Shown: positions 24,605-45,723 of the stretch, piece after piece
How positions within the stretch are numbered: the first letter of the stretch is position 1
Layout: each line of letters opens with the position of its first letter
Notes under the pieces: model-generated
Databases searched by the model: none
Told to the model about the DNA's origin: nothing
Seen by the model: the letters and a program-made list of their open reading frames with translations, nothing else
Program-made: the position numbers and the translations under genes
Assembly: GCF_003568665.1 (NCBI RefSeq)
Contig: NZ_QXMH01000002.1
Coordinates: forward strand, 372,001-436,000
Direction: 5' to 3'
DNA: 64,000 nt
Source: Chitinophaga alhagiae
GTDB lineage: Bacteria > Bacteroidota > Bacteroidia > Chitinophagales > Chitinophagaceae

Positions 24605-24950
24605 GTGACCCTCCCTGGTACGAAATTTTTTTCCGGTGCCCTTGATGGCACTGAAACCGCCTGTGGTATTGTGTTTAAATCCAACGAAACAGGCTAAATA
24701 TTGCCCTGGGTTCAGTCAAAAACAGAGAAAATTGAAAATTCTTTAAAATTTACGGGCACGTGCCCGTAAATTTGCGTACATTAGATTCCGGAAAGAACGA
24801 TCAACCAGGATTGATATCCGCCGGCCCTGGCGGAGGTGACAATGGCATGTTCTATGCATCATTAGAGGTGGTGAAAAACTACAGTAAAAAGAAGGTGTTC
24901 GGCTAGGTGAATTTGCAACTCAATTCCTATCAATACTAAACCCGGTATAC
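24605..24950 (+). other. Leader region of the aminotransferase-to-SusD operon
   Basis: 346 bases separate the regulator from the next gene. Besides the operator-promoter at 24742-24774 it has small hairpins: GTGCC/GGCAC near 24635-24650, and TCCGCC/GGCGGA (24817-24822 with 24829-24834). An ATG-less frame runs to 24906 and is not called as a gene. Confidence 0.5.
24742..24774 (+). promoter_or_regulatory. LacI-type operator overlapping the operon promoter
   Basis: Bases 24746-24773 form a perfect 28-bp palindrome with core CGGGCACGTGCCCG and flanks AAATTTA/TAAATTT. The right flank makes an exact -7 box, TAAATTTG (24767-24774); TTTA at 24742-24745 can serve as -33 (21-base gap). The operator therefore fills the space between the two promoter boxes, the classic position for repression. 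The odd-free central CG step fits LacI-family sites. Confidence 0.8.
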
Positions 24951-26348
24951 ATGGAAAAAAATATTTCGCAAAACGGTGCTCCGAACCCGCGCCGCTCTTT
25001 CCTGAAATCTTCAGGCGCGCTCACGGCAGGCCTGCTGCTGGGCAGCACCCTCAAAGCCGCAGACACCTTCCACATCAACGGCAGCGCCGCCACGCCGGCC
25101 ATATTGGGCGGTGACCCGGTGCGCCGCGCCGCCTGGACAAAATGGCCTATCTGGAAACCGGAAACAGATGAGCAGCGCGTGGTAGACGTGATCAGGAGCG
25201 GCATCTGGTCAAGGGCCAGCGTAGTCACAGAATTTGAAAAGGAATGGGCCGCCGCACTGGGTGTAAAAAGGAGCCTTGCCGTTGTGAATGGCACCAATGC
25301 CCTGGTAGTAGCGCTCAACCAGTTGCATATCAAAACCGGCGATGAAATTCTGGTACCGCCTTATACCTTCATTGCCACCATCACCGCGGTACTCTCCAAC
25401 GGCGCTATGCCGGTCTTCGTGGATATAGACCCGGATACCTACCAGATAGATCCTGCCAAGCTGGAAGCAAAGATCACCCCGCGTACCAAAGCCATCATGC
25501 CCGTACACATCCTGGGCCTGCCGGCGGATATGGACCGTATTATGGCCATCGCAAAAAAGCATAACCTGGTAGTGGTAGAAGATGCTTGCCAGGCGCACCT
25601 TGCGGAATATGGCCATAAAAAAGTAGGCACCTTCGGCAACGCCGGCTGCTTCAGCTTCCAGAACTCAAAAAACCTGGCCATTGGAGAAGGCGGCGCCGTG
25701 GTGAGTGATGACGATGCCTTTATGGACCGTTGTTTTTCTTACCAGAACTATGGTTATCCATATGGTACCATGGCCGGTGTAGTAGGAGCGGGCAGCACCA
25801 TGCAAGGCACCAAGGTGCGCCTCACGGAATACCAGGCGGCTATTGGCCTTTCGTTGCTGAAAAGGCTGGATGCGGAAACTACTGCCCGCAACAACAACGC
25901 GGCGTATCTGAAGTCGCAGCTCGGCGGCATCCCCGGCGTGCGCCCGTATAAACTGTATGATAAAGTTACAAGGGGAGCGTTTCACCTGTTTCCCTTCCGG
26001 TATAGTGAAGCGGCGTTCAAAGGCCTGCCGCGCGAAGCGTTCCTGAAAGCCATGCGCGCGGAAGGCATACCCTGTTCCGGCGGGTATACGGTGCTCAATA
26101 ACCAGCTTTTCCTCAAAGATGCATTTGAGTCTAAAGCGTATCAGAACTCCTACCCGAAAGAACAGCTCAATTTCGAAAAATACGTGGCAGACAACCGCTG
26201 CCCGGAAAATGAAAAGTTGTGCAAAGAGGCCGTGTGGTTTACGCAAAACATGCTGCTGGGGCCTAAAACAGATATGGACGATATTGCCGCGGCCATTGCC
26301 CGCATTCAAAAGAACGCAGACAAAATAAAGCTGGCCGCAAAAACATAA
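24951..26348 (+). CDS. Tat-exported DegT/DnrJ/StrS family PLP aminotransferase
   Basis: This family transfers an amino group to keto-sugars or ketocyclitols (fold type I, PLP). The 465-residue protein begins with a twin-arginine signal (RRSFLKSSGALTAGLLLG, Arg14-Arg15). The enzyme part then follows: VVNGTNALVVALNQLHIKTG, VPPYTFIATITAVL, VVEDACQAHLAEYG with the PLP-ring aspartate, and FSFQNSKNLAIGEGG where Lys240 is the Schiff-base lysine. All key residues look intact, so it should be active. Most DegT enzymes are cytoplasmic; a Tat signal implies folding with PLP and work in the periplasm. It is the first gene of the operator-controlled run, 13 bases before the next gene. Confidence 0.9.
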   Translation: MEKNISQNGAPNPRRSFLKSSGALTAGLLLGSTLKAADTFHINGSAATPAILGGDPVRRAAWTKWPIWKPETDEQRVVDVIRSGIWSRASVVTEFEKEWAAALGVKRSLAVVNGTNALVVALNQLHIKTGDEILVPPYTFIATITAVLSNGAMPVFVDIDPDTYQIDPAKLEAKITPRTKAIMPVHILGLPADMDRIMAIAKKHNLVVVEDACQAHLAEYGHKKVGTFGNAGCFSFQNSKNLAIGEGGAVVSDDDAFMDRCFSYQNYGYPYGTMAGVVGAGSTMQGTKVRLTEYQAAIGLSLLKRLDAETTARNNNAAYLKSQLGGIPGVRPYKLYDKVTRGAFHLFPFRYSEAAFKGLPREAFLKAMRAEGIPCSGGYTVLNNQLFLKDAFESKAYQNSYPKEQLNFEKYVADNRCPENEKLCKEAVWFTQNMLLGPKTDMDDIAAAIARIQKNADKIKLAAKT

Positions 26349-26361
26349 ACATCAGCCCGAT

Positions 26362-27762
26362 ATGAGTACGCATCACACATTTCAATTGAAAAAATTGAGA
26401 ACAGGTCTCTTTTGCATGTTACTGCTTGTCTATCTCAACTGCCCCGCGCTGGCGCAAGGCGGGTGGAAGGCAGGCGCGGCCAGGGTAAATATCACGCCCA
26501 CCGAAAACATGTGGATGGCAGGTTTTGCCATGCGTACCAAACCTGCTGAAGGGAAAATGCACGAGTTATGGGCCAAGGCCCTGGCCATGGAAGACGCGCA
26601 GGGCAAAAGGGTATTGCTGATCACCTCGGACCTGCTGGGTTTTCCCAAATCCATTTCAGACCGCATCCGCAACGCCATTCAGGCAAAATATAAACTGCAG
26701 CGCAGCCAGGTGATGCTTAACAGCTCCCACACGCATTCCGGGCCGGTAATTGGCGATGCGCTGTCAGACATCTATCTCTACGGCCCCGATCAGGCAAAAC
26801 TTGTTGAGCAATATTCCGCCGAGCTGGAAACAAAAGTGACGGACCTGGCCGGTAAAGCGCTGGCAGACCTTGAGCCGGCTGAACTGTATGTACAGAACGG
26901 GGTCACGCGTTTCCAGGTGAACCGCCGCAACAATAATGCGGGCCTGCTGCCCTGGGTGTCAGACCTCAACGGCCCTAATGATTATGCTGTGCCGGTTATC
27001 AAAGTGCAAACACCGTCCGGAAAACTGAAAGCGGTGGCCTTCGGTTATGCCTGCCACCCAACGGTATTGAACGGGTATCAATATTCAGCAGACTACCCGG
27101 GTTTTGCTATGCTGGAACTGGAAAAAACGTATCCTGGTGCTACGGCGTTGTTTTTCCAGGGCGCCGGCGCTGACCAGAACCCGCTCCCCCGCGGCTCGGA
27201 AGCACTGGCCAAACAATACGGCAAAGAGCTGGCTGCGGCTGTAGAAAGGGTATTGGAGGAAGACATGAAGAAGCTGACGCCCGCTATCACCACGGCTTAC
27301 GCAGAGGTGCGCCTGCCCTTTACCAACCTGCCGGATGAGGTCAGGCTTACCCAGCTGGCTACCGCCGGGCCGGAGGGCTACCCCCGGCGCTGGGCGGCCC
27401 GCATGCTGGCCAAAGTAAAAAGCAACGAACCGAGAGACAAAGATTATCCCTACCCGGTAGAAGTATGGAAGCTGGGAGACCAGCCGGTGATAGGGCTGGG
27501 CGGGGAACTGGTGGTAGACTACAGCATCAGGCTGAAAGAGATCTTCGGGCTGGATGTTTTTGTGATGGGTTATTGTAACGATGTGATGTCTTACATCCCG
27601 TCTTCGCGGATATTGCGGGAAGGCGGGTACGAAGGCTCCATGGCCTGCATGGTGTACGGCCTGCCCACCGCCTGGAGCCCCGAAACGGAAACCATCATTC
27701 TGCAGGAAGTGATAAAGCTGGCCAAAGAAGCGCAAATACCGCTCCGGCCGGTTGTTCTTTAA
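26362..27762 (+). CDS. Secreted neutral/alkaline ceramidase-fold hydrolase
   Basis: The 466-residue protein has a signal peptide (to about residue 32, ALAQ) and the N-terminal domain of neutral ceramidases: KAGAARVNITPTENMWMAGF, then NSSHTHSGP and YACHPTVLNG, which hold the two zinc histidines. In true ceramidases a serine nucleophile lies in a GDVSPN-like motif; the matching place here reads GAGADQNPL, without that serine, and the C-terminal immunoglobulin-like domain is missing. It is therefore probably not a ceramidase but a zinc hydrolase acting on another amide or ester. Position two of the operon suggests work on the same substrate as the aminotransferase. Confidence 0.8.
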   Translation: MSTHHTFQLKKLRTGLFCMLLLVYLNCPALAQGGWKAGAARVNITPTENMWMAGFAMRTKPAEGKMHELWAKALAMEDAQGKRVLLITSDLLGFPKSISDRIRNAIQAKYKLQRSQVMLNSSHTHSGPVIGDALSDIYLYGPDQAKLVEQYSAELETKVTDLAGKALADLEPAELYVQNGVTRFQVNRRNNNAGLLPWVSDLNGPNDYAVPVIKVQTPSGKLKAVAFGYACHPTVLNGYQYSADYPGFAMLELEKTYPGATALFFQGAGADQNPLPRGSEALAKQYGKELAAAVERVLEEDMKKLTPAITTAYAEVRLPFTNLPDEVRLTQLATAGPEGYPRRWAARMLAKVKSNEPRDKDYPYPVEVWKLGDQPVIGLGGELVVDYSIRLKEIFGLDVFVMGYCNDVMSYIPSSRILREGGYEGSMACMVYGLPTAWSPETETIILQEVIKLAKEAQIPLRPVVL

Positions 27763-27781
27763 AAAAATACCGATCATCCAT

Positions 27782-28738
27782 ATGAGTACAATGCCATTAT
27801 CACGCAGGGAATTTATTGCAGGTGCAGGCATACTGCTGGCCGGCACGGCCCTGAAGCTGCGCGGCGCTGGGCTGCCGGAGCCGGAAGCGGAACAGTTGAT
27901 AGACATTCATCAGCACATCAGCTATATGGGCCGCACTGATGCGGACCTGATGCATCACCAGCGGGCGCTGGGCGTAACCCGCACCATTATGTTGCCTTCC
28001 GGCACACCGGTAAGCAGGCCTTCCACGCATGAGGGCAAGTCTAACGGGCTGCAAGCCAGGGCCGGTGGCAATGAGGCCTGCTACCAGTTGGTGCAGCAAT
28101 ACCCCAAAGAGCTGCTGTTTGGCGCTAACGAGGTACCTGACCTGCCTGGTGCTACCGCGGAAATTGAAAAGTACCTCAAGCTGGGCGCGGTGGTCATAGG
28201 CGAACTGAAATTCGGGGTGGACTGCGATTCAAAGGAAATGCAGCGCATCTATGAGCTGGCGCAGGCTTACAACGTACCGGTGCTGATGCACTGGCAGTTT
28301 AACATGTACAACTACGGCTTTGACCGCTTTCATAAAATGCTGGAAAAATACCCGAAGGTCAACTTCATTGGGCACGCACAAACATGGTGGGCCAATGTGG
28401 ATAAAAGCTATACAGATAAGCTGGGCCTCTATCCTAAAGGGAAGATCACGCCCGGCGGCCTTACGGACCGCCTGCTGAGCAATTATCCCAATATGTATGC
28501 AGACCTTTCCGCCGGCTCGGGCCTTAACGCTGTTGCGCGGGATGAAGAGCACGCAAAAGCATTCCTGAAAAAGCATCAGAACAAGCTGATGTACGGCAGC
28601 GATTGCCTGGATGTTACAGCGGAGCTGAAAGACTGCTCCGGTGCGGGTATGCTGGCCGAGGTCAGGAAGCTGGCGCCGGATAAAAAGGCGTTGAACAAAA
28701 TACTGTACAAGAATGCGAAACGAATATTCCGGTTATAG
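27782..28738 (+). CDS. Tat-exported amidohydrolase family protein
   Basis: From the ATG at 27782 the product has 318 residues and a Tat signal (LSRREFIAGAGILLAGTALK). An upstream start at 27752 would overlap the previous gene by 11 bases and put ten residues before the signal. The mature part is an Amidohydro_2 TIM barrel: LIDIHQHISYMG with the metal HxH, then VIGELKFGVDC, VLMHWQFNMY, VNFIGHAQTWW and the terminal MYGSDCLD motif with the catalytic aspartate. Members are zinc-dependent hydrolases or decarboxylases. It lies 12 bases before the next gene, in the same operon. Confidence 0.88.
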   Translation: MSTMPLSRREFIAGAGILLAGTALKLRGAGLPEPEAEQLIDIHQHISYMGRTDADLMHHQRALGVTRTIMLPSGTPVSRPSTHEGKSNGLQARAGGNEACYQLVQQYPKELLFGANEVPDLPGATAEIEKYLKLGAVVIGELKFGVDCDSKEMQRIYELAQAYNVPVLMHWQFNMYNYGFDRFHKMLEKYPKVNFIGHAQTWWANVDKSYTDKLGLYPKGKITPGGLTDRLLSNYPNMYADLSAGSGLNAVARDEEHAKAFLKKHQNKLMYGSDCLDVTAELKDCSGAGMLAEVRKLAPDKKALNKILYKNAKRIFRL

Positions 28739-28750
28739 AAAAATCAAGCA

Positions 28751-30061
28751 ATGATACCAGTAGAAACAGTTACAGACAAAGCACTGACAGCAAAGCCATA
28801 TTTTTCCGGGTTCGGACTGGCCCATGACACCTACAACGCCATTACAGCAGCCAGCAATGGAAAAATTTATTACGTGCTCTCATCGGAGTCTTATGACAAG
28901 GGAGGGCAGATATATGTATACGATCCGGCTACAGACCGCTCGGAATTTCTGGCGGACCTTACGGAGATATGCGGGGAAAAAGACGCCGCCACTATTCCGC
29001 AAGGCAAAAGCCACGTGCGTTTTCATGAAAGCGGGGGTAAGCTGTATTTCGCCTCGCATGTAGGGGTGTATGAAATGATAGACGGTATGGAACGGCTGCA
29101 CGTGCATGCGCCGGAAGGTTATAAACTGTACCCCGGCGGGCATTTTCTTTCATATGACCTGGATACAGGCCGGTTTGAAGACCTGGCTATTGCCCCCGAG
29201 GGCGAAGGCATTATTACCATGACCATGGACAAGGAAAGGAAACAATTGTACGCACTTACCTGGCCATTGGGTTATTTCATCCATTACAACATACAAACCG
29301 GGGAGTTGAAAAACCTCGGTCTGACCTGTGCCCGCAGTGAGGCCGGAACGGTGGGAGACGACTACCGCACTATCTGCCGTTCCATGTTCGTAGACCAGGA
29401 GAAGGGGAACGTGTATTTCTCCACCGCGGAAGGTTCCATCTTTACCTATCACCCTGCCGCCTCCGCACTGGAAAAGCTGGAGGGCATAGACCTGAAGATG
29501 GACTACTTCGGTACTTACGATGCCACACGCCCCGGCAGCATGGGCTATAACTGGCGTAAGATATTCTGGTACGCGCCTGAAAAGGTAGCATACGGCGTGC
29601 ATGGCAACTCCGGTTACCTGTTCCGTTTTGATCCTGCTGAAAGGAAAGTGGAGATCGTGGACCGCATTGCGTCTTCGCTTTCCCAGAAAAGCGGGATGTA
29701 TGACCAGTTTAGTTACGGTTACCTGGGGTTCATTCTCGGCCCTGACGGGGAAACCATCTATTACCTCACAGGCGGCCCGGTGTATGAGAACGGCAAAAGG
29801 GTAACAGGGGCCAGCCAGATAGCCAAGGGAGCCGCCAAAGGCATAGAGAACCTGCACGTGGTTACCTATCACCTGCCTACCGGCACGTATAAAGACCATG
29901 GCGCTGTGTTCTACCCGGACGGCGGCCGCCCCACATACGTCAATTCCATTGCTATTGGCGCGGACGGTAATATCTACACCCTGGCGCGGTTTAACTGGCG
30001 GGGCAACGAGATCCAAGACCTGGTGAAGATACCGAACCCTTTTCGCTTAAAAATTTCCTGA
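28751..30061 (+). CDS. Beta-propeller protein of unknown function
   Basis: The 436-residue protein has no signal peptide (MIPVETVTDKALTAKPYFSG) and a repeated pattern of short strands of the kind AASNGKIYYVLSSE, GNVYFSTAEGSIFTYHP, DGETIYYLTGGPVYENG and ADGNIYTLARFNW, spaced by 50-60 residues. This fits a six- to eight-bladed propeller similar to SMP-30/gluconolaconase or oligogalacturonide-sensing proteins, but I cannot assign a family. Without a signal it would be cytoplasmic, unlike its Tat and Sec neighbours. A missing signal could also mean the annotated start is internal, but no upstream start is available before 28739. Confidence 0.6.
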   Translation: MIPVETVTDKALTAKPYFSGFGLAHDTYNAITAASNGKIYYVLSSESYDKGGQIYVYDPATDRSEFLADLTEICGEKDAATIPQGKSHVRFHESGGKLYFASHVGVYEMIDGMERLHVHAPEGYKLYPGGHFLSYDLDTGRFEDLAIAPEGEGIITMTMDKERKQLYALTWPLGYFIHYNIQTGELKNLGLTCARSEAGTVGDDYRTICRSMFVDQEKGNVYFSTAEGSIFTYHPAASALEKLEGIDLKMDYFGTYDATRPGSMGYNWRKIFWYAPEKVAYGVHGNSGYLFRFDPAERKVEIVDRIASSLSQKSGMYDQFSYGYLGFILGPDGETIYYLTGGPVYENGKRVTGASQIAKGAAKGIENLHVVTYHLPTGTYKDHGAVFYPDGGRPTYVNSIAIGADGNIYTLARFNWRGNEIQDLVKIPNPFRLKIS

Positions 30062-30095
30062 ATCCACTATGAAAAAAATAATAACAGACTGCAAC

Positions 30096-32219
30096 ATGAA
30101 GAACAGGCGTATTTTTTTAGCTATTGGCGTGGCGCTGCTGGCCGCATGTAACGAGCCGCGGTACAAAGGCCCGCTGTCACCGGAAGAGTCCATTAAAACG
30201 TTTGATGTGGCGGAAGGTTTCAAGGTAGAGGTTTTTGCGGCGGAGCCTTACGTGAAAGATCCCGTTGAAATGGTGTTTGATGAAGAAGGGAACTGTTTTG
30301 TGATGGAAATGGGAGACTATCCGTACAAGCCGGAAAAGGGGCGCGGAACGGGCAAGATACGCCAACTGAAAGATATGGATGGGGATGGAAGGATAGATTC
30401 CGCCATCGTGTTTGCCGAAGGCCTGCCCAGCGGCACCAGTATGCTGCCCTGGCGGCAGGGCCTGCTGGTAACGGCGGCGCCTGACATATTGTTTATGAAA
30501 GATACGGATGGAGACGGGCGGGCAGACAGTACGGAAGTGCTGTTCACCGGTTTTTTTGAAGATAATTCCGAAGCCCAGATCACCAGCCTACGGTATGGGG
30601 TAGACAACTGGATCTACGCCAACAACAACGGGCAGAAAGGGCAGGTAAAATTCATGCGCAAGCCGGATGCGCCGCCGGTGTCTGTTGGCGGCGGAGACTT
30701 CCGTTTCCGGCTGGATAAAGGTTTGTTTGAAGTAGAGTCCGGCGTGGGCCAATTCGGCCTGGCTATGGACGACTACGGGCATCGCTTCTTCACCCAGAAC
30801 ACCTTGCATATACAAACGGCGCCTATTCCCTGGCGTTACCTGCACCGGCATAATTACCTGCCGGCCTACAGAGGCGTGGCCAATATTTATAAAGACACGC
30901 CGGTGGTATACCAGTTGAGCGAAACACCGTACTGGCGGCAGGAGCGTACGGACCGGCGGCAGCAGGCGTACGATGAGCAGGGCCTTGGCAGAAAAGAATA
31001 CGCGCGGGAGCATTTTACCGGCGCATCGGGCGGTACGGATTATAACGGCGCGGGTTTCCCGCAGGAGTATTACGGCTCCGTGTTTACCGCGGAAGTGGCC
31101 TGCAACCTGATACACCGGGACCAGATAGACACCTTGCACAATGGGCCTTTCTTTGCGGCAAGGCGGCCTGAAAAGGAGCTGAAAAGAGAGTTCCTGGCCG
31201 CGTCAGACCCCTGGTTCCGCCCTGTGAACCTGGCCAATGCACCGGATGGCTGGCTTTACCTGATAGACATGTACCGCCAGCATATAGAAACACCGGTGTC
31301 CATCCCGGAAGACCTGAAAACGGATATGGACTTTATGTTGGGCAACCAGTACGGCCGCATTTACCGCATTGTGCCCACCGGCGCCACCGTGCGGCACAAC
31401 GTAAAGCCGGGCCTCCGCGGCAAGTCAACGGAAGAGCTGGTGGCGCTGCTGGGTAACGGCAGCCGCTGGTGGCGTGTAAATGCGCAGCGCCTGCTGGTAG
31501 AACGGAAAGACCCCGCCGCCATTCCCATGCTCAACGCGCTCTATACTTCCGGCAACGCCGGCGAAAAAGCGCGGTTGCATGCATTGTACACCCTGGAAGG
31601 GCTGGATGCGCTTAACAGCGGGCTGGTAACGCAGGCCATGAATGACCAGGCGCCCGGCATCCGCGAACATGCCGCCATACTGGCGGAGCGCTACCCGGCG
31701 TGTTTGCCTGCGCTGGTGAAACTGAGTGAAGACACGGTGCCACTGGTAGCCTTTCAGGCCACACTAAGCCTGGGCCAGTTCCCTGAAAGCAAAACAGCGG
31801 AAGCGCTGGTGGCCGTATTGGAAAAACATGCAAAAGACAGATGGTTCCAGTCTGCCATACTCAGTTCCCCTGCCGGCATCTCCATGCAGTTCCTGACCCG
31901 CCTGCAGGCTTCCGGCGCGCTGAACAAAGAGGGCCGTTCAGATAAAGGCGGGTATCTCACCACTTTTGCGCATGCCGTTGCCGCGCGCAACACGGCAGGG
32001 GAGGTGAGCCGTTTGTTGGGAATAGCGCTGCAATTGAGTGAAAAATACCAGGTAGCCATTTTGGGCGGTGTAACTACCGGCTTGAAAGCCGGCAAAAGCA
32101 AAACCGCTCCCGATGCGGCGTTTGGCCCCGCGCTGGCGGCACTGGAGAAAAGTACGGACGGTAAGGTGAAGGCGGCCGCGGAGAAATTGTCCGCGTCATT
32201 GAAAGAAACAGGAAAATAA
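30096..32219 (+). CDS. PVC-type dehydrogenase-like lipoprotein with HEAT repeats
   Basis: The 707-residue form from 30096 has a lipoprotein signal (MKNRRIFLAIGVALLAAC, Cys18). Next comes the propeller domain of the so-called PVC-type membrane-bound dehydrogenases: FDVAEGFKVEVFAAEPYVKD, then two calcium-loop-like motifs DMDGDGRIDS and DTDGDGRADS, LRYGVDNWIYANNNGQ and PVNLANAPDGWLYLIDMYRQ. The last 250 residues are HEAT-like helical repeats (LVALLGNGSRWWRVNAQRLL and onward). Full members end in a cytochrome c domain with CxxCH; none is present here. A separate HiPIP-like protein is encoded next, which could be the electron acceptor. The substrate is unknown; soluble-sugar oxidation is the common suggestion for this fold. 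Confidence 0.75.
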   Translation: MKNRRIFLAIGVALLAACNEPRYKGPLSPEESIKTFDVAEGFKVEVFAAEPYVKDPVEMVFDEEGNCFVMEMGDYPYKPEKGRGTGKIRQLKDMDGDGRIDSAIVFAEGLPSGTSMLPWRQGLLVTAAPDILFMKDTDGDGRADSTEVLFTGFFEDNSEAQITSLRYGVDNWIYANNNGQKGQVKFMRKPDAPPVSVGGGDFRFRLDKGLFEVESGVGQFGLAMDDYGHRFFTQNTLHIQTAPIPWRYLHRHNYLPAYRGVANIYKDTPVVYQLSETPYWRQERTDRRQQAYDEQGLGRKEYAREHFTGASGGTDYNGAGFPQEYYGSVFTAEVACNLIHRDQIDTLHNGPFFAARRPEKELKREFLAASDPWFRPVNLANAPDGWLYLIDMYRQHIETPVSIPEDLKTDMDFMLGNQYGRIYRIVPTGATVRHNVKPGLRGKSTEELVALLGNGSRWWRVNAQRLLVERKDPAAIPMLNALYTSGNAGEKARLHALYTLEGLDALNSGLVTQAMNDQAPGIREHAAILAERYPACLPALVKLSEDTVPLVAFQATLSLGQFPESKTAEALVAVLEKHAKDRWFQSAILSSPAGISMQFLTRLQASGALNKEGRSDKGGYLTTFAHAVAARNTAGEVSRLLGIALQLSEKYQVAILGGVTTGLKAGKSKTAPDAAFGPALAALEKSTDGKVKAAAEKLSASLKETGK

Positions 32220-32284
32220 AACGCCGGCCGTAAAACTGCCGGGAAAAATATTCGCATAAAAAAGGGAAAGTGCAAAAACACTGC

Positions 32285-32638
32285 ATGATGGAAAAACAGC
32301 ATTATTCGCGCCGTTCGTTTCTGAGCAATACTTTTTCATCCGGTCTGCTACTGCTCACAGGCGGCCTGCTGGCCGCAGGCTGCGGTGGCGGCAAAAAAGA
32401 AAATAAAGCGGAAGAAGAGCTGACCTCCTGCCAGGACTATAGTCACCTGATGGAAGAAGACCTGGCGGCGAGGAAGAAACTGGGATATACAGATGCTTCT
32501 CCCGATCCCGAAAAATACTGCAGGCTGTGCAACCTCTACAAGCCCCCCAGGGAAGGGGCCAAATGCGGAGGGTGCCTGCTGTTCAAGGGGCCGGTAGAAG
32601 CAGAGGGCACCTGTACGTACTGGGCGCCCCAGACCTGA
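32285..32638 (+). CDS. Tat-exported HiPIP-like iron-sulfur protein
   Basis: The 117-residue product (start at 32285 or 32288) begins with a Tat signal (YSRRSFLSNTFSSGLLLLTG) and a possible lipobox LAAGC. Its C-terminal half has the high-potential iron-sulfur spacing: CRLC, then KCGGCLLF, then GTCTYW, i.e. C-x2-C, a cysteine about 16 residues on, and the last one about 15 residues later, with aromatic residues beside it. HiPIPs carry one [4Fe-4S] cluster and shuttle single electrons in the periplasm. Tat export fits a cluster inserted in the cytoplasm. It follows the dehydrogenase-like gene by 65 bases. Confidence 0.75.
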   Translation: MMEKQHYSRRSFLSNTFSSGLLLLTGGLLAAGCGGGKKENKAEEELTSCQDYSHLMEEDLAARKKLGYTDASPDPEKYCRLCNLYKPPREGAKCGGCLLFKGPVEAEGTCTYWAPQT

Positions 32639-32664
32639 CAAATGTACCAATAAATCATACCGTC

Positions 32665-33561
32665 ATGATGAAACGCTTGTCAACACTTGTGGTACTGGCT
32701 TTGCTGTGCCAATACCTTCTCTTTGCCGGTAACGGCCCGGGCAACGGGCCAGGGCAGCAGCCTGTACGGGGCACCTACAGCGGCTTGCCGCGCCTCGCTA
32801 ATGACCGGGCAGACCTGCCCCGCCTGCTGGCCGAGCTGAAAGACATTCACGCCAATACGTACAACTGGCTGATATGGACGCGGGCAACGGATTGGGAAGA
32901 CCTGCAGGCCTTTCTGCCCATGGCCCGCAAAGCCGGTATCACAGTATGGGTAACGTTGGTGCCGCACTCCGAATCTCCTCCTCATGCAAAATATTTTTCA
33001 GAACCCTTCCGGCTCGATTTTGAACGCTGGGCCAAAGAGCTGGCCGCGCTCAGCCTGAAAGAGCCTGCCCTCACCACCTGGAGCATAGATGATTTTGTAC
33101 ACAACCTGCAGGCGTTCACCCCTGAATATGTTGGCAGGTTCATCGCGGCGGCCAGGGCTATTAATCCCAAACTGGCCTTCATTCCCTGCTGTTATTACCG
33201 GCAGATCAATGCGGCCTTTTCATCTGCCTACGCGCCTTTCCTCAGCGGTGTGCTGTTCCCCTACCGCGCAGAATCCGTAAAGGCCAGTCTTGCAGACGCC
33301 ACACAGGTAAAAGCGGAAATAGATACCATCAAACAATTGTTCGGGGCCTCGTTCCCCGTAGTACTGGATATATACGCCACTGCGCACAGCCGCCTGGGCG
33401 CGTCTACGCCCGGGTACGTGAAAGAAGTGCTGAAGGCGGGCATGCGGCATGCAGACGGCGTGTTTATCTATTGCCATCAAGACCCCGCAACGCAACAGGA
33501 GAAGTACGCCGTGATCAGGGAAGGATTTGCGCGGGGAGAGAAAGGCAAACGCATTCCATAA
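32665..33561 (+). CDS. Secreted protein of unknown function, glycosidase-like barrel
   Basis: The 298-residue form from 32665 starts with a signal peptide (MMKRLSTLVVLALLCQYLLF); a longer frame from 32527 overlaps the HiPIP gene and lacks any signal. The mature part alternates strands and helices: NTYNWLIWTRATDWEDLQAF, AGITVWVTLVPHSESPPHAK, LTTWSIDDFVHNLQAFTPEY, PKLAFIPCCYYRQIN, GVLFPYRAES, VVLDIYATAHSRLG, and HADGVFIYCHQDP. Acidic residues at strand ends (SIDDF, DIYA) suggest a TIM barrel of the glycoside hydrolase superfamily, but I recognise no family. It is the last gene before the susC spacer. Confidence 0.55.
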   Translation: MMKRLSTLVVLALLCQYLLFAGNGPGNGPGQQPVRGTYSGLPRLANDRADLPRLLAELKDIHANTYNWLIWTRATDWEDLQAFLPMARKAGITVWVTLVPHSESPPHAKYFSEPFRLDFERWAKELAALSLKEPALTTWSIDDFVHNLQAFTPEYVGRFIAAARAINPKLAFIPCCYYRQINAAFSSAYAPFLSGVLFPYRAESVKASLADATQVKAEIDTIKQLFGASFPVVLDIYATAHSRLGASTPGYVKEVLKAGMRHADGVFIYCHQDPATQQEKYAVIREGFARGEKGKRIP

Positions 33562-33699
33562 AGCAACAACAGGAACATACGGCCGGTGAATGGCCTGCGT
33601 GCAACAGGAAAGACCAGGAAAATAAACAGACACTCACCTCAAACAAAAGACGCTCAGCCAGGGATTTACTATTCGAAAAACCGTTTAATTATTCGCTTA

Positions 33700-33715
33700 C
33701 ACGGGTACGCGCCCG
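33700..33715 (+). promoter_or_regulatory. Second, degenerate copy of the LacI-type operator before susC
   Basis: CGGGTACGCGCCCG (33702-33715) agrees with the palindrome core at 24753-24766 in 12 of 14 positions and keeps the two CGGG/CCCG ends. It lies 25 bases before the susC ATG. No -7 box overlaps it, unlike the first site, so it may be an auxiliary operator, a roadblock, or an evolutionary relic. Confidence 0.55.
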
Positions 33716-33739
33716 AAAACTCAACCAAAAGTATTACAT

Positions 33740-36700
33740 ATGATTACGCAAAAACCTTCGTGGTGCATCCCATTACGGATGGGAGGTGTCATGCTCATGC
33801 TGTTCCTTTTAACAGCGCCCGGGCAATTATGGGCGCAGCAACAAAAAACGGTAACCGGCACCGTGCGTGAGCAGCCGGGAGGCACGCCCATGCCGGGTGT
33901 GCGGGTAATGGTAAAAGGCACCGCCCGGGGCGCCAATACCAACGAGCAGGGAAAATATACCCTTTCCGTGCAGGAGGGGGCCGTGCTGGAATTTTCCTTT
34001 ATAGGCTACCGCAAAGAGGAACGCCCGGTGGCTGGTAAAACCATTGTAGACGTGAGCCTGGAGAAAGAAGATGTAACGCTGAGCAATGTAGTGGTAATAG
34101 GCTATGGCGCTGTAAAGAAACAAGACCTCACCGGTTCCGTGAGCCAGGTAAAAATGAAGGAACTGACCAAAGCCCCGGTTGCTTCCTTTACAGATGCGCT
34201 GGCCGGCCGCGTGGCCGGGGTACAGGTATCTTCTAACGACGGCCAGCCCGGCGGCGTGCCCAACATTGTGATACGCGGCGCCAACTCCCTTACGCAAAGC
34301 AATGCGCCGCTGTATGTGATAGACGGATTCCCGGTAGAGAACCCTGAAAATGCGGCCATCAACCCGGAGGAGATAGAGTCTATGAATATTCTGAAAGACG
34401 CTTCCGCTACCGCCATCTATGGCTCCAGGGCGGCCAACGGCGTAGTGGTGATCGAAACCAAAAGAGGTAAGACCGGTAAACCCGCTATTACATTCAACAC
34501 ATCCTACGGTTTCCAGGAAGTGCCCAAAACCATGGAGATGATGAGCCCGTACGAGTTTATCAAATACCAGTACGAGCGGCGCCCGGATATTACGGCGGAA
34601 AAATATTTCACAGATGGTAAAACGCTGGAATCTTACCGCAACACACCGGCCATCAACTGGCAGAACGAAGTGCTGCGCAAAGGCCCCATGAGCATCAGCA
34701 ACATTGCTATCCGGGGGGGCAGCGATGTTACCCGGTATGCTATCAGCGGATCGTTGTACGATCAGAAAGGGGTAGTGATCAATACTGATTTCAAACGCTA
34801 CCAGGCACGTTTTACGCTAGACCAGGACATTGGCAAAAAGCTGAAAGTAGGCCTTACCGCCAACTACAGCCGCCTCAAAACGTTCGGGCAGCCCGTGGCG
34901 TCCAACCCCGGCTCCAGTTCTATTTCCACGTACCTCTGGTTCAGGGTATGGGCTTACCGCCCGCTTTCGGGAGATGAGGTGAGCCTTACTGATGAAATAG
35001 CCGATCCGGAAAACATCACCCCGTCAGACATCCGCATGAACCCCCTGATCACCGTGCAGAACGACTTCACAAGAGACCTGTCTACCGTCTTTTCCGGCAA
35101 CGCATACCTCAGCTACAGCATTACAGATAACCTGGTACTGCGCCTGAGCGGTATTGCCAACGGGGAGTTCAGGAAGTCAGAACGGTATTACAACAGCAAG
35201 ACCCCGCAAGGCAGCCCCCTGAACCCCAACAACCTGCGGGGCGTTAACGGCAGCGTGGGCAATTCGGAGATCAATATCTGGAGCAGCGAAAATACGCTCA
35301 CCTATAACAAGACCTTTAACGAACATCACAGCCTCACGGCCGTAGGTGGTTTTTCCGCACAGGAAACAAGGGTGGCCACCAACGGCTACGCCGCGCAAAA
35401 CCTGCCTAATGAAAACCTGGGCATCAGCGGCATGGACGAAGGGGTGCCTTACACCGGCACGGCCACGTCCGAAGGCAACACGCTCATGTCTTTTTTTGGC
35501 CGTATTAACTATAACTACCGCTCCAGGTACCTGCTTACCGCCACCTTCCGGGGAGACGGCTCATCCAAGTTTGCGCCGGAGCGCCGCTGGGGGTATTTCC
35601 CTTCCGCCGCTATTGCCTGGAACATGCAGGAAGAAAGTTTCCTGCAGCCGCTGAAAGCGGTGTCAAACGCCAAGCTCCGCCTCAGCTATGGTATTACGGG
35701 CAACAACCGGGTGGGCAACTTTGAATGGTTTGACCGCCTTACGCAAAGCATACAAGGGTATTCTTTCAACAACGGCACGCCTTCTTCCACCATTAACCCG
35801 GCCAACATTGCCAATAAAGACCTGCGCTGGGAACGTACGGCGCAGTTGAACCTGGGGTATGACCTGGGCCTGTTCCGCAACCGGATAGAATTTACGGTAG
35901 ACCTCTACCGCAAAATCACCAACGACCTCCTGCTGCGGGCAGACCTGCCGCCCAGCACCGGTTTTGGTACGGCTTTCAAGAACATTGGCCGCCTGAAGAA
36001 CGAGGGCATTGAGCTGAGCCTGAACACCGTCAACATTTCGAAAGGTGATTTTACATGGCAAAGCAATTTCAACATCAGCTTCAATAAAAACACCATTCTT
36101 GAATTGACGGAAGGGCAGCAGTTCCTGCAAAACGCCGTGTCATTTGAATCACAATTTTCTTCCCCGCTATACCTGTCTGCCATAGGCCAGCCTGCCGGCA
36201 TGTTTTTCGGGTACCTGTTTGATGGCGTGTACCAGTACGCGGATTTTGACAGCCCGGCGCCGGGTGTATATGTATTGAAAAAAGAACTGCCGGCCAACGG
36301 CACAGGCAGAACGGCCATTCAGCCGGGAGATGTCAAGTATAAAGACATCAACGGGGACGGGCTGGTGAACAGTCTTGACATGGTAGTGATGGGCCGCGGG
36401 CAGCCTATTCATGCCGGCGGTTTTATGAACAACTTTTCGTACAAGGGCATAACGCTGAGCGCATTTTTGCAATGGTCTTACGGCAACCAGATCTATAACG
36501 CCAACCGCCTTACGTTTGAAGGCAACAGCAACGGCCGGCATGAAATGAACCAGTTTGCCAGTTATGTGAACCGCTGGTCGCCGGAAAACCAGACCAATGC
36601 AAATTACCGTACCAACGGTCACGGGCCCATAGGGTACCACTCTTCCCGCGTGCTGGAAGATGGGTCTTACCTGCGGTTGAAAACGGTGTCTCTTTCATAC

Positions 36701-36904
36701 AGCCTGCCGGCACGGTACATCCGGAGGCTGAGCATGAGCAACCTGACCTTCAGCATATCCGCGCAGAATTTATTGACCTGGACGAAGTATTCCGGCATGG
36801 ACCCCGAGGTATCTGCCCGCAACTCCGTGCTCACACCGGGTTTTGACTTCTCCGCCTATCCGCGGGCCCGTACCCTGATGTTTGGACTGAACGCCAATTT
36901 CTAA
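33740..36904 (+). CDS. SusC/RagA family TonB-linked outer membrane transporter
   Basis: SusC proteins are outer-membrane barrels that import oligomeric substrates using TonB energy, with a SusD lid. The 1054-residue protein has a signal peptide (to about residue 33, LWAQ), a carboxypeptidase-like regulatory domain (GTVREQPGGTPMPGVRVMVK), the TonB-box region VVVIGYGAVKKQDLTGSV, the plug signature ITFNTS preceded by DASATAIYGSRAANGVVVIE, and a barrel ending in aromatic F (RTLMFGLNANF). It is preceded by a 178-base spacer with the degenerate operator and followed 19 bases later by susD. There is no STN domain, so an anti-sigma signalling role is unlikely. Confidence 0.96.
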   Translation: MITQKPSWCIPLRMGGVMLMLFLLTAPGQLWAQQQKTVTGTVREQPGGTPMPGVRVMVKGTARGANTNEQGKYTLSVQEGAVLEFSFIGYRKEERPVAGKTIVDVSLEKEDVTLSNVVVIGYGAVKKQDLTGSVSQVKMKELTKAPVASFTDALAGRVAGVQVSSNDGQPGGVPNIVIRGANSLTQSNAPLYVIDGFPVENPENAAINPEEIESMNILKDASATAIYGSRAANGVVVIETKRGKTGKPAITFNTSYGFQEVPKTMEMMSPYEFIKYQYERRPDITAEKYFTDGKTLESYRNTPAINWQNEVLRKGPMSISNIAIRGGSDVTRYAISGSLYDQKGVVINTDFKRYQARFTLDQDIGKKLKVGLTANYSRLKTFGQPVASNPGSSSISTYLWFRVWAYRPLSGDEVSLTDEIADPENITPSDIRMNPLITVQNDFTRDLSTVFSGNAYLSYSITDNLVLRLSGIANGEFRKSERYYNSKTPQGSPLNPNNLRGVNGSVGNSEINIWSSENTLTYNKTFNEHHSLTAVGGFSAQETRVATNGYAAQNLPNENLGISGMDEGVPYTGTATSEGNTLMSFFGRINYNYRSRYLLTATFRGDGSSKFAPERRWGYFPSAAIAWNMQEESFLQPLKAVSNAKLRLSYGITGNNRVGNFEWFDRLTQSIQGYSFNNGTPSSTINPANIANKDLRWERTAQLNLGYDLGLFRNRIEFTVDLYRKITNDLLLRADLPPSTGFGTAFKNIGRLKNEGIELSLNTVNISKGDFTWQSNFNISFNKNTILELTEGQQFLQNAVSFESQFSSPLYLSAIGQPAGMFFGYLFDGVYQYADFDSPAPGVYVLKKELPANGTGRTAIQPGDVKYKDINGDGLVNSLDMVVMGRGQPIHAGGFMNNFSYKGITLSAFLQWSYGNQIYNANRLTFEGNSNGRHEMNQFASYVNRWSPENQTNANYRTNGHGPIGYHSSRVLEDGSYLRLKTVSLSYSLPARYIRRLSMSNLTFSISAQNLLTWTKYSGMDPEVSARNSVLTPGFDFSAYPRARTLMFGLNANF

Positions 36905-36923
36905 ACCATTAAACTGAACCGGC

Positions 36924-38732
36924 ATGAAAAAGTTATGTAGTTTGCTGGCCATAATAGCCGTAACGGCCGGCGCCTGTAAAGATTTCCTGGACGTAAAGCC
37001 GTCTGACTTTCTTTCTTCTTCCAATTATTACACTACTCCCGCCGAGCTGGAAACGGCTCTTACCGGGGTGTACAACATACTCTCGCACTCCGCGCTCTAC
37101 CGGGGCGGCGTGGTTTATCTCAACGGTTTTGAGGGAGATGAGGCTTACATCAACCGTTCCACCCTCATCAACTATCCCTTCACGTTCGATTACACGGCCA
37201 CCAATCCCACCATCGAAAATTTCTGGTTTGCCTGCTACACCGGCATTAACCGGGCCAATACGCTGTTGCAGAACGTAGATAAAAATACGGCGCTGGACCA
37301 GGCCCTCCGGGACAAGGTGCGTGGGCAGGCCCTTTTCCTGAGAGGCTATTACCTGTTTTTGCTGGCGCAGAACTTTGGCGGGGTGCCCATTTTCGTAGCG
37401 CCAACCGCCTCTGTGGAAAGTACGGACGCCAAACGGGCCACGCTCAAGGAAACCTATGACCAGGTGCTGGCAGACATGGAAAAGGCCGAGCCGCTGGTAG
37501 AAGAGGTTACCATTGCCAAAAGCAGCAGGGTCAACAAATCTGCCGTAAGAGGCCTGCTGGCGCGGGTGTGCCTGAATATGGCAGGGCAGCCGCTGAATGA
37601 TCAAAGCAAATATGAAGCCGCCAGGAAGTGGGCAAAGATGGTGATAGACGATGGTTCCCACTCGCTGAACCCTTCCTATGCGGACATATTCATCAAAATA
37701 GCACGGGACGAGTATGATATTAGGGAATGCATCTGGGAGGCCGAGTTTTGGGGCAACGGGATGGACGCGTACTCCATGGCGGGCAATAACGCACGCATCA
37801 ACGGGCCGGCTTCCTCCAATCCCAATACCGGTACCTGCCCGGCGTACATCAACATTACCGGCAAATTCTATAATGCTTTTGAAGCGGGAGACCTGCGCAA
37901 GCCGTGGAGCATTCCCAACTTCAAATACCTGGCCACCGGCCCCCGCGGTGCCAAAACCTACGAAGCGCCGCCTACGCCTACCAACGTTTACCTGGTAAAC
38001 ACCGGCAAGTACCGGCGGGAATATGAAACGCTGACGCCGCAGAACATCAACAGCAGCCCGCAGAACTGGCCGCTGCTTCGTTTTGCCGACGTGCTGCTGA
38101 TGTATGCCGAAGCGGTGAACGCCATCAGCGGCCCTACTGCGGAGGCGGTAGGCGCCGTTAACCTGGTGCGGCGCAGGGCCTGGTCCAAGGGGATCAAGGC
38201 AGTGACCATTACCAGTGGCGGCGCGGGTTACACCAGCGCGCCCACGGTGAGCTTCAGCGCGGGCAGTGATGCGCAGGCTACCGCCGTGATCGCGGCCGGG
38301 AAAGTGACCGGTATCACCTTTGCGCCGGATGCGGTGGTAGGGGCTTTGACGGGCAGCTATACATCGGCGCCCGCCATTACCTTCAGCGGCGGGGGAGGCA
38401 GCGGCGCCGCGGCTACCGCTGCTATTTACACCGAGGCAGATGCGGATGTGCCCGCCGCGGCCACAGCTACCAAAGAAAGTTTTTTGCAGTTCATTCAACA
38501 GGAGCGGCTGAGAGAGCTGAATACGGAAGGGCTGCGGAAGCACGACCTTATCCGCTGGGGCATATTTGTGCCCGCCATGCATGAAGTGGCTAACATGATA
38601 CAGCAAGACGTAGGCGCCCCGTCTTACCTGCAGCGCTTCCTGAGCGTAGCGGAACGGCACAACCTCTGGCCCATTCCAGCAAAGGAAATGACGTTGAACA
38701 GGCAAATGGTGCAAAACCCGGGATGGGAATAA
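36924..38732 (+). CDS. SusD/RagB family lipoprotein with an inserted Gly/Ala-rich repeat module
   Basis: SusD lids sit on the SusC barrel and bind the substrate at the cell surface. The 602-residue protein has a lipobox (AVTAGAC, Cys18), the N-terminal SusD block (DFLDVKPSDFLSSSNYYTTP), TPR helices (RGQALFLRGYYLFLLAQNFG) and the C-terminal ending PIPAKEMTLNRQMVQNPGW. Between the helix AVNLVRRRAW and the helix ESFLQFIQQERLRELNTEG there is an insertion of about 80 residues (roughly 424-508) made of two repeats of the kind GYTSAPTVSFSAG...GKVTGITF. The usual SusD has a short loop there. The insert may enlarge the substrate-contacting face or act as a spacer. Confidence 0.93.
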   Translation: MKKLCSLLAIIAVTAGACKDFLDVKPSDFLSSSNYYTTPAELETALTGVYNILSHSALYRGGVVYLNGFEGDEAYINRSTLINYPFTFDYTATNPTIENFWFACYTGINRANTLLQNVDKNTALDQALRDKVRGQALFLRGYYLFLLAQNFGGVPIFVAPTASVESTDAKRATLKETYDQVLADMEKAEPLVEEVTIAKSSRVNKSAVRGLLARVCLNMAGQPLNDQSKYEAARKWAKMVIDDGSHSLNPSYADIFIKIARDEYDIRECIWEAEFWGNGMDAYSMAGNNARINGPASSNPNTGTCPAYINITGKFYNAFEAGDLRKPWSIPNFKYLATGPRGAKTYEAPPTPTNVYLVNTGKYRREYETLTPQNINSSPQNWPLLRFADVLLMYAEAVNAISGPTAEAVGAVNLVRRRAWSKGIKAVTITSGGAGYTSAPTVSFSAGSDAQATAVIAAGKVTGITFAPDAVVGALTGSYTSAPAITFSGGGGSGAAATAAIYTEADADVPAAATATKESFLQFIQQERLRELNTEGLRKHDLIRWGIFVPAMHEVANMIQQDVGAPSYLQRFLSVAERHNLWPIPAKEMTLNRQMVQNPGWE

Positions 38733-38762
38733 ACCAGTTGCTCACGCTTAAAAAAATTATGT

Positions 38763-39686
38763 ATGAAACTCAGTCATCTTGTTATTCTCGGCGGCTTACT
38801 GCTGCATATGGCCTGCAAAAAAGACCTTGACCTCAATGGCGGCACGCCTGACTTTGAGGTAGTATCAACTACCGGCACTTTTAAACGCGGTGAGCCGGTA
38901 GTGTTCAAATTTGCGGGGAATGCGGATAATATTTCCTTTTACTCCGGTGAGCCGCAGAAAGATTATGCTTTCCGCAGCGGCAGAACAGAAGCGGCTACCG
39001 GCGGCCTGCTGGCCTTCACGTCTGCCGTAACAGGCGGCGCGCAGGCAGGCCAGTTCTCCGTACTGGCCTCTTCAGACTTCAGTGGTAACTATACAGACCT
39101 TACCGCGGTAAAAGCCGCTACGTGGACGGATATTACCGCCCGTTTCAAGCTCGGCTCCACCGCCACCTTTGCCGCTTCAGGCAACAAAGACGTAACAGAC
39201 CTGCTGGCAGCCGGAAAGCCCCTGTACGTGGCCTTCCGGTACATCACCCAACCGCAGCAGCAAAACGGCGCGGCCCGTACCTGGATGGTGCAGGGATATG
39301 CTTTCCAGGGCATTACCGCGCTGGGCAATTTAACAGGCGCCGATATGTTTACAGGCGCTTTCCGGCTGGTCACCTCCAACCCGGCCACCGCACCCGCCCG
39401 CTCTGCCGTAAGCACCAGCCGCCTCACCCTGCTGGCTAACGAGTTCACGGCAGATAACGACCCGCTTACAGAAAACTGGGCCATCAGCGCGCCGGTAACC
39501 TGGGAGCAGCTAAACCTGGGGCCTGACAGGCCCGTGGGCATCAAAGGCGGTACGGCCGCGCGGCTGGAGAGTTATGCGCACACCTACGCAAACCCTGGTA
39601 CCTACAAGGCTACCTTTGTAGCATCTAACGTGAATATAGACCAGCGCAGCGAAGTAGTGAGGGAAGTAACAGTTACGGTCCAGTAG
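38763..39686 (+). CDS. DUF5017-type surface lipoprotein
   Basis: The 307-residue protein has a lipobox (GLLLHMAC, Cys18) followed by a charged spacer. The rest is beta-rich: TFKRGEPVVFKFAGNADNIS with FYSGEPQKDYAFRSGR, a middle jelly-roll-like region with LYVAFRYITQPQQQNGAART, and a final PKD-like domain (YAHTYANPGTYKATFVASN). This is the DUF5017 architecture, seen as the extra surface lipoprotein of SusCD loci in place of SusE/F, so binding of the same ligand is likely. It closes the operon and is followed by a strong bidirectional terminator. Confidence 0.8.
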   Translation: MKLSHLVILGGLLLHMACKKDLDLNGGTPDFEVVSTTGTFKRGEPVVFKFAGNADNISFYSGEPQKDYAFRSGRTEAATGGLLAFTSAVTGGAQAGQFSVLASSDFSGNYTDLTAVKAATWTDITARFKLGSTATFAASGNKDVTDLLAAGKPLYVAFRYITQPQQQNGAARTWMVQGYAFQGITALGNLTGADMFTGAFRLVTSNPATAPARSAVSTSRLTLLANEFTADNDPLTENWAISAPVTWEQLNLGPDRPVGIKGGTAARLESYAHTYANPGTYKATFVASNVNIDQRSEVVREVTVTVQ

Positions 39687-40494: not shown

Positions 40495-40551
40495 AAAAAA
40501 CGGGTTAAATAAATGAAGGGTTATATACCTGTTGCGGTAATATTTTCAGGA

Positions 40552-41571: not shown

Positions 41572-41582
41572 ATTATCTTGAA

Positions 41583-42338: not shown

Positions 42339-42354
42339 TGTTTTATTGGCTGAC

Positions 42355-43143: not shown

Positions 43144-43145
43144 TG

Positions 43146-44456: not shown

Positions 44457-44485
44457 AACGGTAAGGCGATATTCGCTTTACCGTT
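44457..44485 (+). terminator. Bidirectional terminator hairpin overlapping the AraC stop codon
   Basis: AACGGTAAGGCGA (44457-44469) pairs with TCGCTTTACCGTT (44473-44485), 13 bp with one G-T pair and a 3-base loop. It separates the convergent small membrane protein and AraC genes. Confidence 0.75.
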
Positions 44486-45579: not shown

Positions 45580-45723
45580 TTTGACAGTACTTTTTTTCCG
45601 TATATGGTAAATAATTTTCCCTCATCGATCATTGGAAGGGCATGTGGCGGCGGTATTTTTTCTCCATTTCTGGTAACTGATTTTCCCGGGCAGCACTGTT
45701 TATTGCCGCAATTTTGTAGCCGC

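Follow-up and report, generated by a model that had tools for sequence, protein, structure and literature searches.

Sugar transamination is, to our knowledge, regarded as a cytoplasmic biosynthetic step carried out mostly on nucleotide sugars. In the GnnA/GnnB and WlbA(WbpB)/WlbC(WbpE) pairs, a cytoplasmic Gfo/Idh enzyme oxidizes C3 of a sugar of the uridine diphosphate N-acetylglucosamine (UDP-GlcNAc) type, and a DegT enzyme aminates the product. PtaA and PvdN are described as pyridoxal phosphate (PLP) enzymes of pyoverdine maturation exported by the twin-arginine translocation (Tat) pathway, with PtaA performing a periplasmic transamination (PMC6206403). Glucosamine and GlcNAc utilization through NagP, NagA and NagB, in some cases with NagX, and a periplasmic 3-keto-glycoside pathway of LacABC and DUF1080 proteins are both presented in a further paper (PMC9007349). 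Here we analyze a window of 64,000 nucleotides from the soil bacterium Chitinophaga alhagiae (contig NZ_QXMH01000002.1, positions 372,001 to 436,000; genome G000, 6.13 Mb in 15 contigs), in which a gene for a DegT-family aminotransferase with a Tat-type export start opens an operon that ends with SusC, SusD and DUF5017 genes. We tentatively propose, with somewhat less than even confidence, that a LacI-controlled regulon for amino-sugar utilization is divided between two loci, of which this operon is one, and that it includes an extracytoplasmic transamination step. The proposal starts from observed gene content, conservation, a Tat motif, intact active-site residues and an operator-like sequence that the two loci have in common.

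Co-occurrence defines a core of three genes plus a partner. DegT orthologs (at least 57% identity), a ceramidase-like zinc hydrolase and a propeller-like protein are found in the identical five of 296 evenly drawn Bacteroidota genomes, with p = 5.5e-11 per pair if genomes are taken as independent, a figure that relatedness weakens. Between 5 and 9 first-look candidates were scored per genome, under E limits that we set at 1e-80 for DegT and the propeller-like protein, 1e-60 for Gfo337 (a Gfo/Idh family of about 337 residues), 1e-30 for the hydrolase and ORF8, and 1e-8 for the HiPIP-like protein. Gfo337 occurs in nine of these genomes, all five core genomes included. DegT, hydrolase and propeller-like protein make up the core, Gfo/Idh is its partner, and the PVC-type and HiPIP-like proteins, Amh and ORF8 are accessory.

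An earlier note, made from the sequence of this DNA alone, had taken the whole block as one system with the HiPIP-like protein as its redox partner. The genes it named are all there, by gene list and by Pfam and NCBIfam models, and conservation together across Bacteroidota, whose absence the note had named as refuting its idea, holds for the core. We rejected the block as a unit: HiPIP relatives occur in 28 of the 296 genomes and ORF8 in 3, of which only the window's own is a core genome, and of 80 loci only 4 have Amh. Nor do we take HiPIP to be an essential partner, because genome G286 carries the core without a HiPIP match (the other four core genomes have one), whereas Gfo/Idh is present in all five.

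The same division is seen at the level of neighborhoods. From a scan of species genomes that gave 567 confirmed DegT relatives, we compared the best 80 loci, among which Dyadobacter and Runella are over-represented. The hydrolase is present in 59 loci, the propeller-like protein in 49 and both in 45; the PVC-type protein follows with 16, LacI with 13, HiPIP with 10 (all ten with PVC), and Amh and ORF8 with 4 each. Loci were annotated by longest-ORF calling (ORF, open reading frame) and BLAST, which recovered DegT itself in 78 of 80; in L096, longer opposite-strand ORFs masked the DegT and hydrolase genes, and a separate search showed DegT there. Core genes are not always adjacent. In G267 the propeller gene lies inside a different contig from DegT and the hydrolase, in G258 hydrolase and propeller are together with DegT on another contig, and in G286 DegT and propeller are on different contigs, both at contig ends.

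The block from 24951 to 39686 has every gene, DegT through DUF5017, on the plus strand. Its features and those immediately upstream are as follows.

23540 to 24604, plus strand: LacI-family regulator (PF00356 and Peripla_BP_4), probable repressor of the regulon, with a 58% identical paralog near the second cluster.
24750 to 24769, no strand: predicted LacI operator 5' of DegT, a perfect 20-bp palindrome, TTACGGGCACGTGCCCGTAA, with orthologous sites in L096 and L097.
24951 to 26348, plus strand: DegT/DnrJ/EryC1/StrS aminotransferase with Tat-type export start (PF01041 and alignment); core.
26362 to 27762, plus strand: neutral-ceramidase-like putative zinc hydrolase with signal-like start, His/His/Glu/Tyr set kept and Ser replaced by Asn273; core.
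27752 to 28738, plus strand: Amh, a Tat-type Amidohydro_2 hydrolase, start possibly at 27782; accessory, 4 of 80 loci.
28751 to 30061, plus strand: propeller-like protein with no assigned function, no signal in the window protein, a lipobox-like motif at the start of several Bacteroidales relatives; core.
30069 to 32219, plus strand: PVC-type DUF7133 lipoprotein with HEAT repeats, a candidate sugar dehydrogenase with no cytochrome motif; accessory, 16 of 80 loci.
32270 to 32638, plus strand: HiPIP-like Tat lipoprotein with invariant Cys84, Cys87, Cys99, Cys102 and Cys115; accessory.
32665 to 33561, plus strand: ORF8, about 300 residues, signal-like N-terminus, no family match, possibly a glycan-cleaving enzyme; accessory.
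33702 to 33715, no strand: second predicted LacI operator, 24 bp 5' of SusC.
33740 to 36904, plus strand: SusC-type TonB-dependent outer-membrane importer, with a 71% identical copy adjoining the same core in L019.
36924 to 38732, plus strand: SusD-type surface binding lipoprotein, 73% identical in L019.
38763 to 39686, plus strand: DUF5017 lipoprotein-like protein (PF16409, 174 bits).

The LacI regulator, both operators, the propeller-like protein, ORF8 and the Gfo/Idh and Nag-type partners elsewhere in the genome and in relatives' loci were not part of the earlier note. It had placed SusC, SusD and DUF5017 downstream, as they are; SusC and SusD are adjacent, and a comparable pair lies near the core in L019, L044 and L096. 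Its statement that there is no recognizable glycosidase also stands as far as Pfam goes: none was recognized in the operon, ORF8 has no Pfam match and remains a candidate, and GH20 neighbors occur only in other species. Next to the operon, the minus strand carries five lipoprotein-like ORFs (39790 to 43832), followed by an AraC-like regulator, labeled by eye (44478 to 45464), and a plus-strand TonB-dependent receptor-like ORF (45604 to 48090).

The export motif of the DegT enzyme is conserved nearly as well as its active site. The protein matches PF01041 at 328.3 bits against a cut-off of 19.8, and the TAT_signal model PF10518 at 21.8 bits, slightly below 22.7. We aligned it with 79 relatives, excluding proteins of less than 45% identity or fewer than 431 residues. 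The PLP lysine Lys240, the cofactor aspartate Asp211 and Gln214 are invariant in all 80 proteins, and the twin arginines Arg14-Arg15 are kept in 79. The earlier note's Tat-exported DegT/StrS enzyme with an intact Lys240 is thus upheld by the alignment, and the conserved motif supports a prediction of export via Tat. The closest solved structures are scyllo-inosose and deoxy-scyllo-inosose aminotransferases, and ColD is also in the match list. DegT relatives adjoining hydrolase or propeller genes come from Bacteroidota and from records labeled Verrucomicrobia, Kiritimatiellae, Lentisphaerae, Planctomycetota or Sedimentisphaerales. The genome also holds a third DegT copy (42% identical, Tat-type start; L094, G000:C9:494000-513999) with an SDR and amidohydrolase-like pair, adjoining genes that by eye resemble contractile-tail genes. 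The same amidohydrolase-like pair is also near DegT in L015, L030, L151 and L153.

A shared operator links the operon to a second cluster. The exact operator core, CGGGYRCGTRCCCG, occurs at six places in the genome: at 24753 (5' of DegT) and 33702 (5' of SusC) in the window, at three sites in a cluster on contig C12, one 5' of a Gfo/Idh family of about 455 residues (Gfo455) and two 5' of Gfo337, and on contig C10, 5' of the gene for a RidA-like protein whose start is signal-like. Shuffles of the window gave 0.01 exact sites expected against 3 found, counting both strands. The C12 cluster (29.7-47.6 kb) encodes the LacI paralog (58%), Gfo469, NagB-like, NagA, NagP-like and Gfo455 proteins, a 760-residue Tat-type protein, a BNR-repeat protein, DUF5017, SusD, SusC, and Gfo337 with a Tat-type start. 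We infer that LacI binds the predicted sites, and the DegT operon and C12 cluster appear to be co-regulated as a LacI-controlled two-locus regulon. Because the operator is common to the operon and to NagP-like, NagA and NagB-like genes, we read the substrate as an amino sugar, in agreement with one of the options in the earlier note.

The operator follows the regulator across related loci. Exact sites occur in 10 of the 13 loci with LacI versus 3 of the 67 without (p 4.4e-8, uncorrected for relatedness). They lie at most 235 bp 5' of the called start of Gfo337, SusC, DegT or, once (L015), another neighbor; in L033, L039 and L042 the site is at most 15 bp 3' of the called Gfo337 start. A looser pattern adds L086, twice and inside a gene, and L092, once. 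In seven loci carrying a GntR regulator instead, the exact operator was not found. Within the genome, sites with one mismatch occur once 5' of the LacI paralog and twice 5' of a third SusC-SusD-DUF5017 set (L180, G000:C11:131778-137501), behind which no enzyme was recognized within a few kb.

The operator in front of a RidA-like gene bears on whether DegT transaminates at all. We consider it rather unlikely that DegT is instead a PLP-dependent lyase, epimerase or dehydratase whose substrate is an amino or keto sugar and whose imine or enamine products would pass to the RidA-like protein. The product of the RidA-like gene (L179, G000:C10:618126-619295) begins with a signal-like stretch and contains RidA (Ribonuc_L-PSP) sequence three times; in L044, a relative with 43% identity is encoded between HiPIP and DegT. 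The DegT superfamily includes dehydratases, ColD among them, and an enzyme that does not transaminate would need no amino acceptor. However, ColD-type dehydratases carry a histidine in place of the PLP lysine, which is kept in 80 of 80 DegT proteins here, and what we take to be the usual RidA catalytic arginine is not obvious by eye.

Exported Gfo/Idh proteins and Nag-type proteins recur beside DegT. Gfo337 is present in 28 of the 80 loci, every time on the DegT strand, and Gfo455 in 35; by our own simple rule, used here for all N-terminal signal counts in place of a signal-peptide program, 25 of 28 Gfo337 and 34 of 40 Gfo455 members have Tat-type starts. By cluster membership, the loci include NagP-like (25), NagA-like (24) and NagB-like (24) proteins, GH20 (2), MurQ (2) and weakly BadF-like kinases (2). 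Models were run on single members of these clusters (four each for NagA, NagB-like and NagP-like, two for MurQ, one for GH20). A further label, 'GH109-like', given from the look of the sequence, was dropped from the marker counts after the one member tested matched no GH109 model; the counts are 39 of 80 loci with it and 35 of 80 without. Neighbors of these families usually share the strand of DegT. Of the three Nag types, 33 loci have one or more and 21 have two or more, mostly in Dyadobacter, Runella and their relatives. In the evenly sampled genome G345, NagB-like, NagP-like, HiPIP, PVC, propeller, hydrolase, DegT, Gfo337 and GH20 genes fall within 20 kb on one strand, and in L098, from the same genus as the window, NagP and NagA stand immediately 3' of DUF5017.

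The Nag-type proteins are unequal in their resemblance to known enzymes. The NagA of the C12 cluster passes the equivalog TIGR00221 (276.1 bits, cut-off 225.65). Its NagP-like and NagB-like neighbors stay below theirs, at 375.9 bits against 625 for NF046060 and 126.4 against 236.9 for TIGR00502. The sugar may therefore not be GlcNAc itself, and the divergence of the NagB-like protein would allow for a GlcNAc isomer or derivative. Gfo455 scores best with the family of the glycoside 3-dehydrogenase BT_2158, at 152-158 bits, well under the equivalog cut-off of 750.

A cyclitol substrate would fit some of these matches. In such a scheme, to which we attach very little probability, DegT would convert imported inosamine-type cyclitols to inososes that are processed further. 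Its best solved matches are inosose aminotransferases, as described above, and the second-best model for Gfo455 is inositol 2-dehydrogenase (65-74 bits against 355). The common operator and the neighbors nonetheless point to hexosamine enzymes, and no other inositol-pathway gene appeared among the neighbor families run against Pfam and NCBIfam, although no dedicated search was made.

A second conserved block adjoins the DegT module in Runella, Spirosoma and relatives (L017, L018, L024, L025, L028, L029, L031, L034, L035, L038 and L047). Its content varies and includes enolase-superfamily, DHDPS-like, EamA-like, creatininase-like, 3-hydroxyacyl-CoA-dehydrogenase-like and RidA-like proteins, some labeled by eye, with a GntR-type regulator in seven loci.

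The hydrolase is probably a zinc enzyme of changed mechanism. As the earlier note held, it has the ceramidase fold without the usual serine: PF04734 matches at 49.7 bits and covers no more than residues 37-259, which correspond to the N-terminal region of neutral ceramidases. His123/His125, His232, Glu382 and Tyr423 are invariant across 30 aligned proteins and align with PDB 2zws, at positions that we take to be the zinc ligands (two His, Glu, Tyr). In the profile alignment, Asn273 occupies the place of the Ser in the neutral ceramidase GNLSPN motif, presumably the catalytic serine. It is this combination, zinc-site positions kept and Asn at the serine position, that argues for a changed mechanism rather than a ceramidase. 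The full-length ceramidase equivalog NF041649 gives 24.4 bits, far under 1200, and by the tests made the protein is not a ceramidase.

The other proteins of the operon are less readily assigned. Sequence profiles of the propeller-like protein gave only weak propeller-repeat matches and no convincing solved relative; designed propellers were matched in part (best E 4.7e-6), but no single stretch was sufficient by itself. The window protein has no signal; by eye, Bacteroidales relatives in L051, L055, L058, L073, L074 and L075 have lipobox-like starts, and our rule gave 3 lipoboxes and 9 hydrophobic starts among 49 family members. Its step may take place on either side of the membrane. Amh matches Amidohydro_2 and has a Tat-like start, which agrees with the Tat amidohydrolase first proposed. 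The PVC-type lipoprotein, which that note had as lacking its cytochrome domain, is likewise borne out: TIGR02604 scores 249.6 bits against 122.2, DUF7133 and HEAT regions and a lipobox-like start are present, and no CxxCH heme motif occurs in the full 716-residue sequence. The Tat HiPIP-like protein of the earlier note is retained on its cysteines, though its Pfam HIPIP score is weak (19.3 bits, under the gathering cut-off of 22). Cys84, Cys87, Cys102 and Cys115, presumably the cluster ligands, are invariant in 13 of 13 proteins. For ORF8, the names among 120 listed of 931 relatives are 'hypothetical protein' and a single DUF4434 label; it is a possible candidate for a glycan-cleaving enzyme.

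We infer a route in which amino-sugar biosynthesis would run in reverse; each reaction, the reaction order, the carbon position and the substrate belong to this inferred scheme. SusC and SusD would bring an amino-sugar glycoside into the periplasm, where the zinc hydrolase would take off an N-acyl group, not that of the C2 acetamide but one on another amine. With PLP bound and already folded on export, DegT would move the amine onto the cofactor and leave a ketone, which exported Gfo/Idh with tightly bound nicotinamide adenine dinucleotide, NAD(H), would reduce. Tightly bound PLP and NAD(H) would thus act as ping-pong cofactors in the periplasm. The resulting N-acetylhexosamine would enter through the NagP-like carrier and meet NagA and the NagB-like deaminase, and the PVC/HiPIP pair would be an optional extra oxidation in some lineages. 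The net effect would be 3-amination of the GnnA/GnnB or WlbA/WlbC type run backwards, on a free sugar and outside the cytoplasm. As an undescribed extracytoplasmic deamination of (di)amino sugars, in which Tat-exported DegT and exported Gfo/Idh feed NagP-, NagA- and NagB-like proteins, the complete scheme strikes us as possible and on balance doubtful.

The direction of the DegT reaction is the first point to weigh. In the opposite direction, the one put forward in the earlier note, an exported Gfo/Idh or PVC/HiPIP dehydrogenase would make the ketone, DegT would aminate it with an amine provided by the zinc hydrolase, and the product would go to the Nag-type genes. Amino-sugar synthesis usually pairs Gfo/Idh with DegT, the amino donor could come from the hydrolase, and 10 of 80 loci have the PVC/HiPIP pair close to DegT. 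The same counts tell against it, HiPIP being in only those 10 loci and PVC in 16. NagA moreover requires an N-acetylated sugar, no exported acetyltransferase was among the annotated neighbors (no search was aimed at one), and spending an amine to build an amino sugar for catabolism would be wasteful. We regard amine addition as quite improbable, and amine removal seems the likelier role for DegT.

A second DegT copy in the same genome provides a point of comparison. This copy (47% identical, Tat-type start; L095, G000:C9:553000-572999) stands in a row with SusC and SusD, MurQ, a ceramidase-like protein, a NagP-like carrier and a weakly BadF-like kinase, possibly a muramic-acid version of the module. 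The company of MurQ, carrier and kinase favors amino-sugar deamination. It could also speak for release of amide-linked sugars, in which the zinc hydrolase cuts the sugar-peptide amide of a muropeptide or glycosyl-asparagine, setting free an amino acid or glycosylamine for DegT; MurQ is near DegT in L015 and L076 as well. Of the 80 loci, no more than these two have MurQ, amide release offers no role for the Gfo/Idh partner, and the substrates of DegT families are sugars, not amino acids. We hold amide release to be highly improbable. Ordinary GlcNAc uptake was rejected as a full explanation, as DegT, the zinc hydrolase and Gfo/Idh would then have no function to perform.

Several observations weigh against extracytoplasmic deamination. 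No Gfo/Idh or Nag gene lies inside the operon itself, 47 of 80 loci have none of the three Nag types, and in L064, L066, L067 and L070 the Nag-type gene is more than 7 kb from DegT. The one-mismatch operator total (16+23 on the two strands) is only moderately above a reversed-pattern control of the genome, which covers one-mismatch matches (12+13), so single one-mismatch sites are weak. DegT's nearest solved relatives are the cyclitol enzymes rather than GnnB or WbpE types, the C3 position would rest on the remote family match of Gfo455, and the low equivalog scores of the NagP-like and NagB-like proteins leave the identity of the sugar in doubt. In the lineage of the window, the propeller-like protein lacks a signal, which would allow one step of the core to be cytoplasmic. 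Finally, we know of no periplasmic amino acceptor. If extracytoplasmic deamination is true, it would give functions to the propeller-like protein, to serine-less ceramidase-like hydrolases and to exported DegT proteins, show bacterial reuse of unusual amino sugars, and raise the question of what accepts the amino group and how cofactors are recycled outside the cytoplasm.

All recognized parts of this system belong to or resemble known families, and there are precedents for transamination as well as for keto-sugar chemistry in the periplasm. Among the best-matching open-licence papers listed, no title or abstract start describes an exported DegT sugar system, and none describes periplasmic transamination in sugar catabolism, which is weak evidence of absence. 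Periplasmic transamination, which the earlier note called unusual, is so; it is not without precedent, given PtaA (PMC6206403). PtaA and PvdN are PLP enzymes that Tat exports in folded form, as is predicted for DegT. They tailor a siderophore, act on another substrate and stand outside any sugar uptake locus.

The remaining systems each match one part of the proposed route. Like neutral ceramidase (PDB 2zws, 4wgk), the hydrolase has the N-terminal fold and the conserved zinc-site positions; unlike it, the protein is shorter, carries Asn for the catalytic serine and matches the C-terminal region only in part. GnnA/GnnB and WlbA/WlbC likewise combine a Gfo/Idh oxidoreductase with a DegT aminotransferase on an N-acetylhexosamine, but they serve biosynthesis in the cytoplasm with nucleotide sugars as substrates, whereas DegT and most Gfo/Idh relatives here have Tat-type starts and accompany uptake and Nag-type catabolic genes. 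The NagP/NagA/NagB pathway has its counterparts in the NagP-like carrier, NagA and NagB-like genes that here have a common operator, while the part of the account used here describes no exported aminotransferase, zinc hydrolase or Gfo/Idh enzymes (PMC9007349). With the 3-keto-glycoside pathways the route would share extracytoplasmic keto-sugar chemistry, and Gfo455 is remotely BT_2158-like. Those pathways start from a hydroxyl, whereas DegT here would reach the keto level from an amine.

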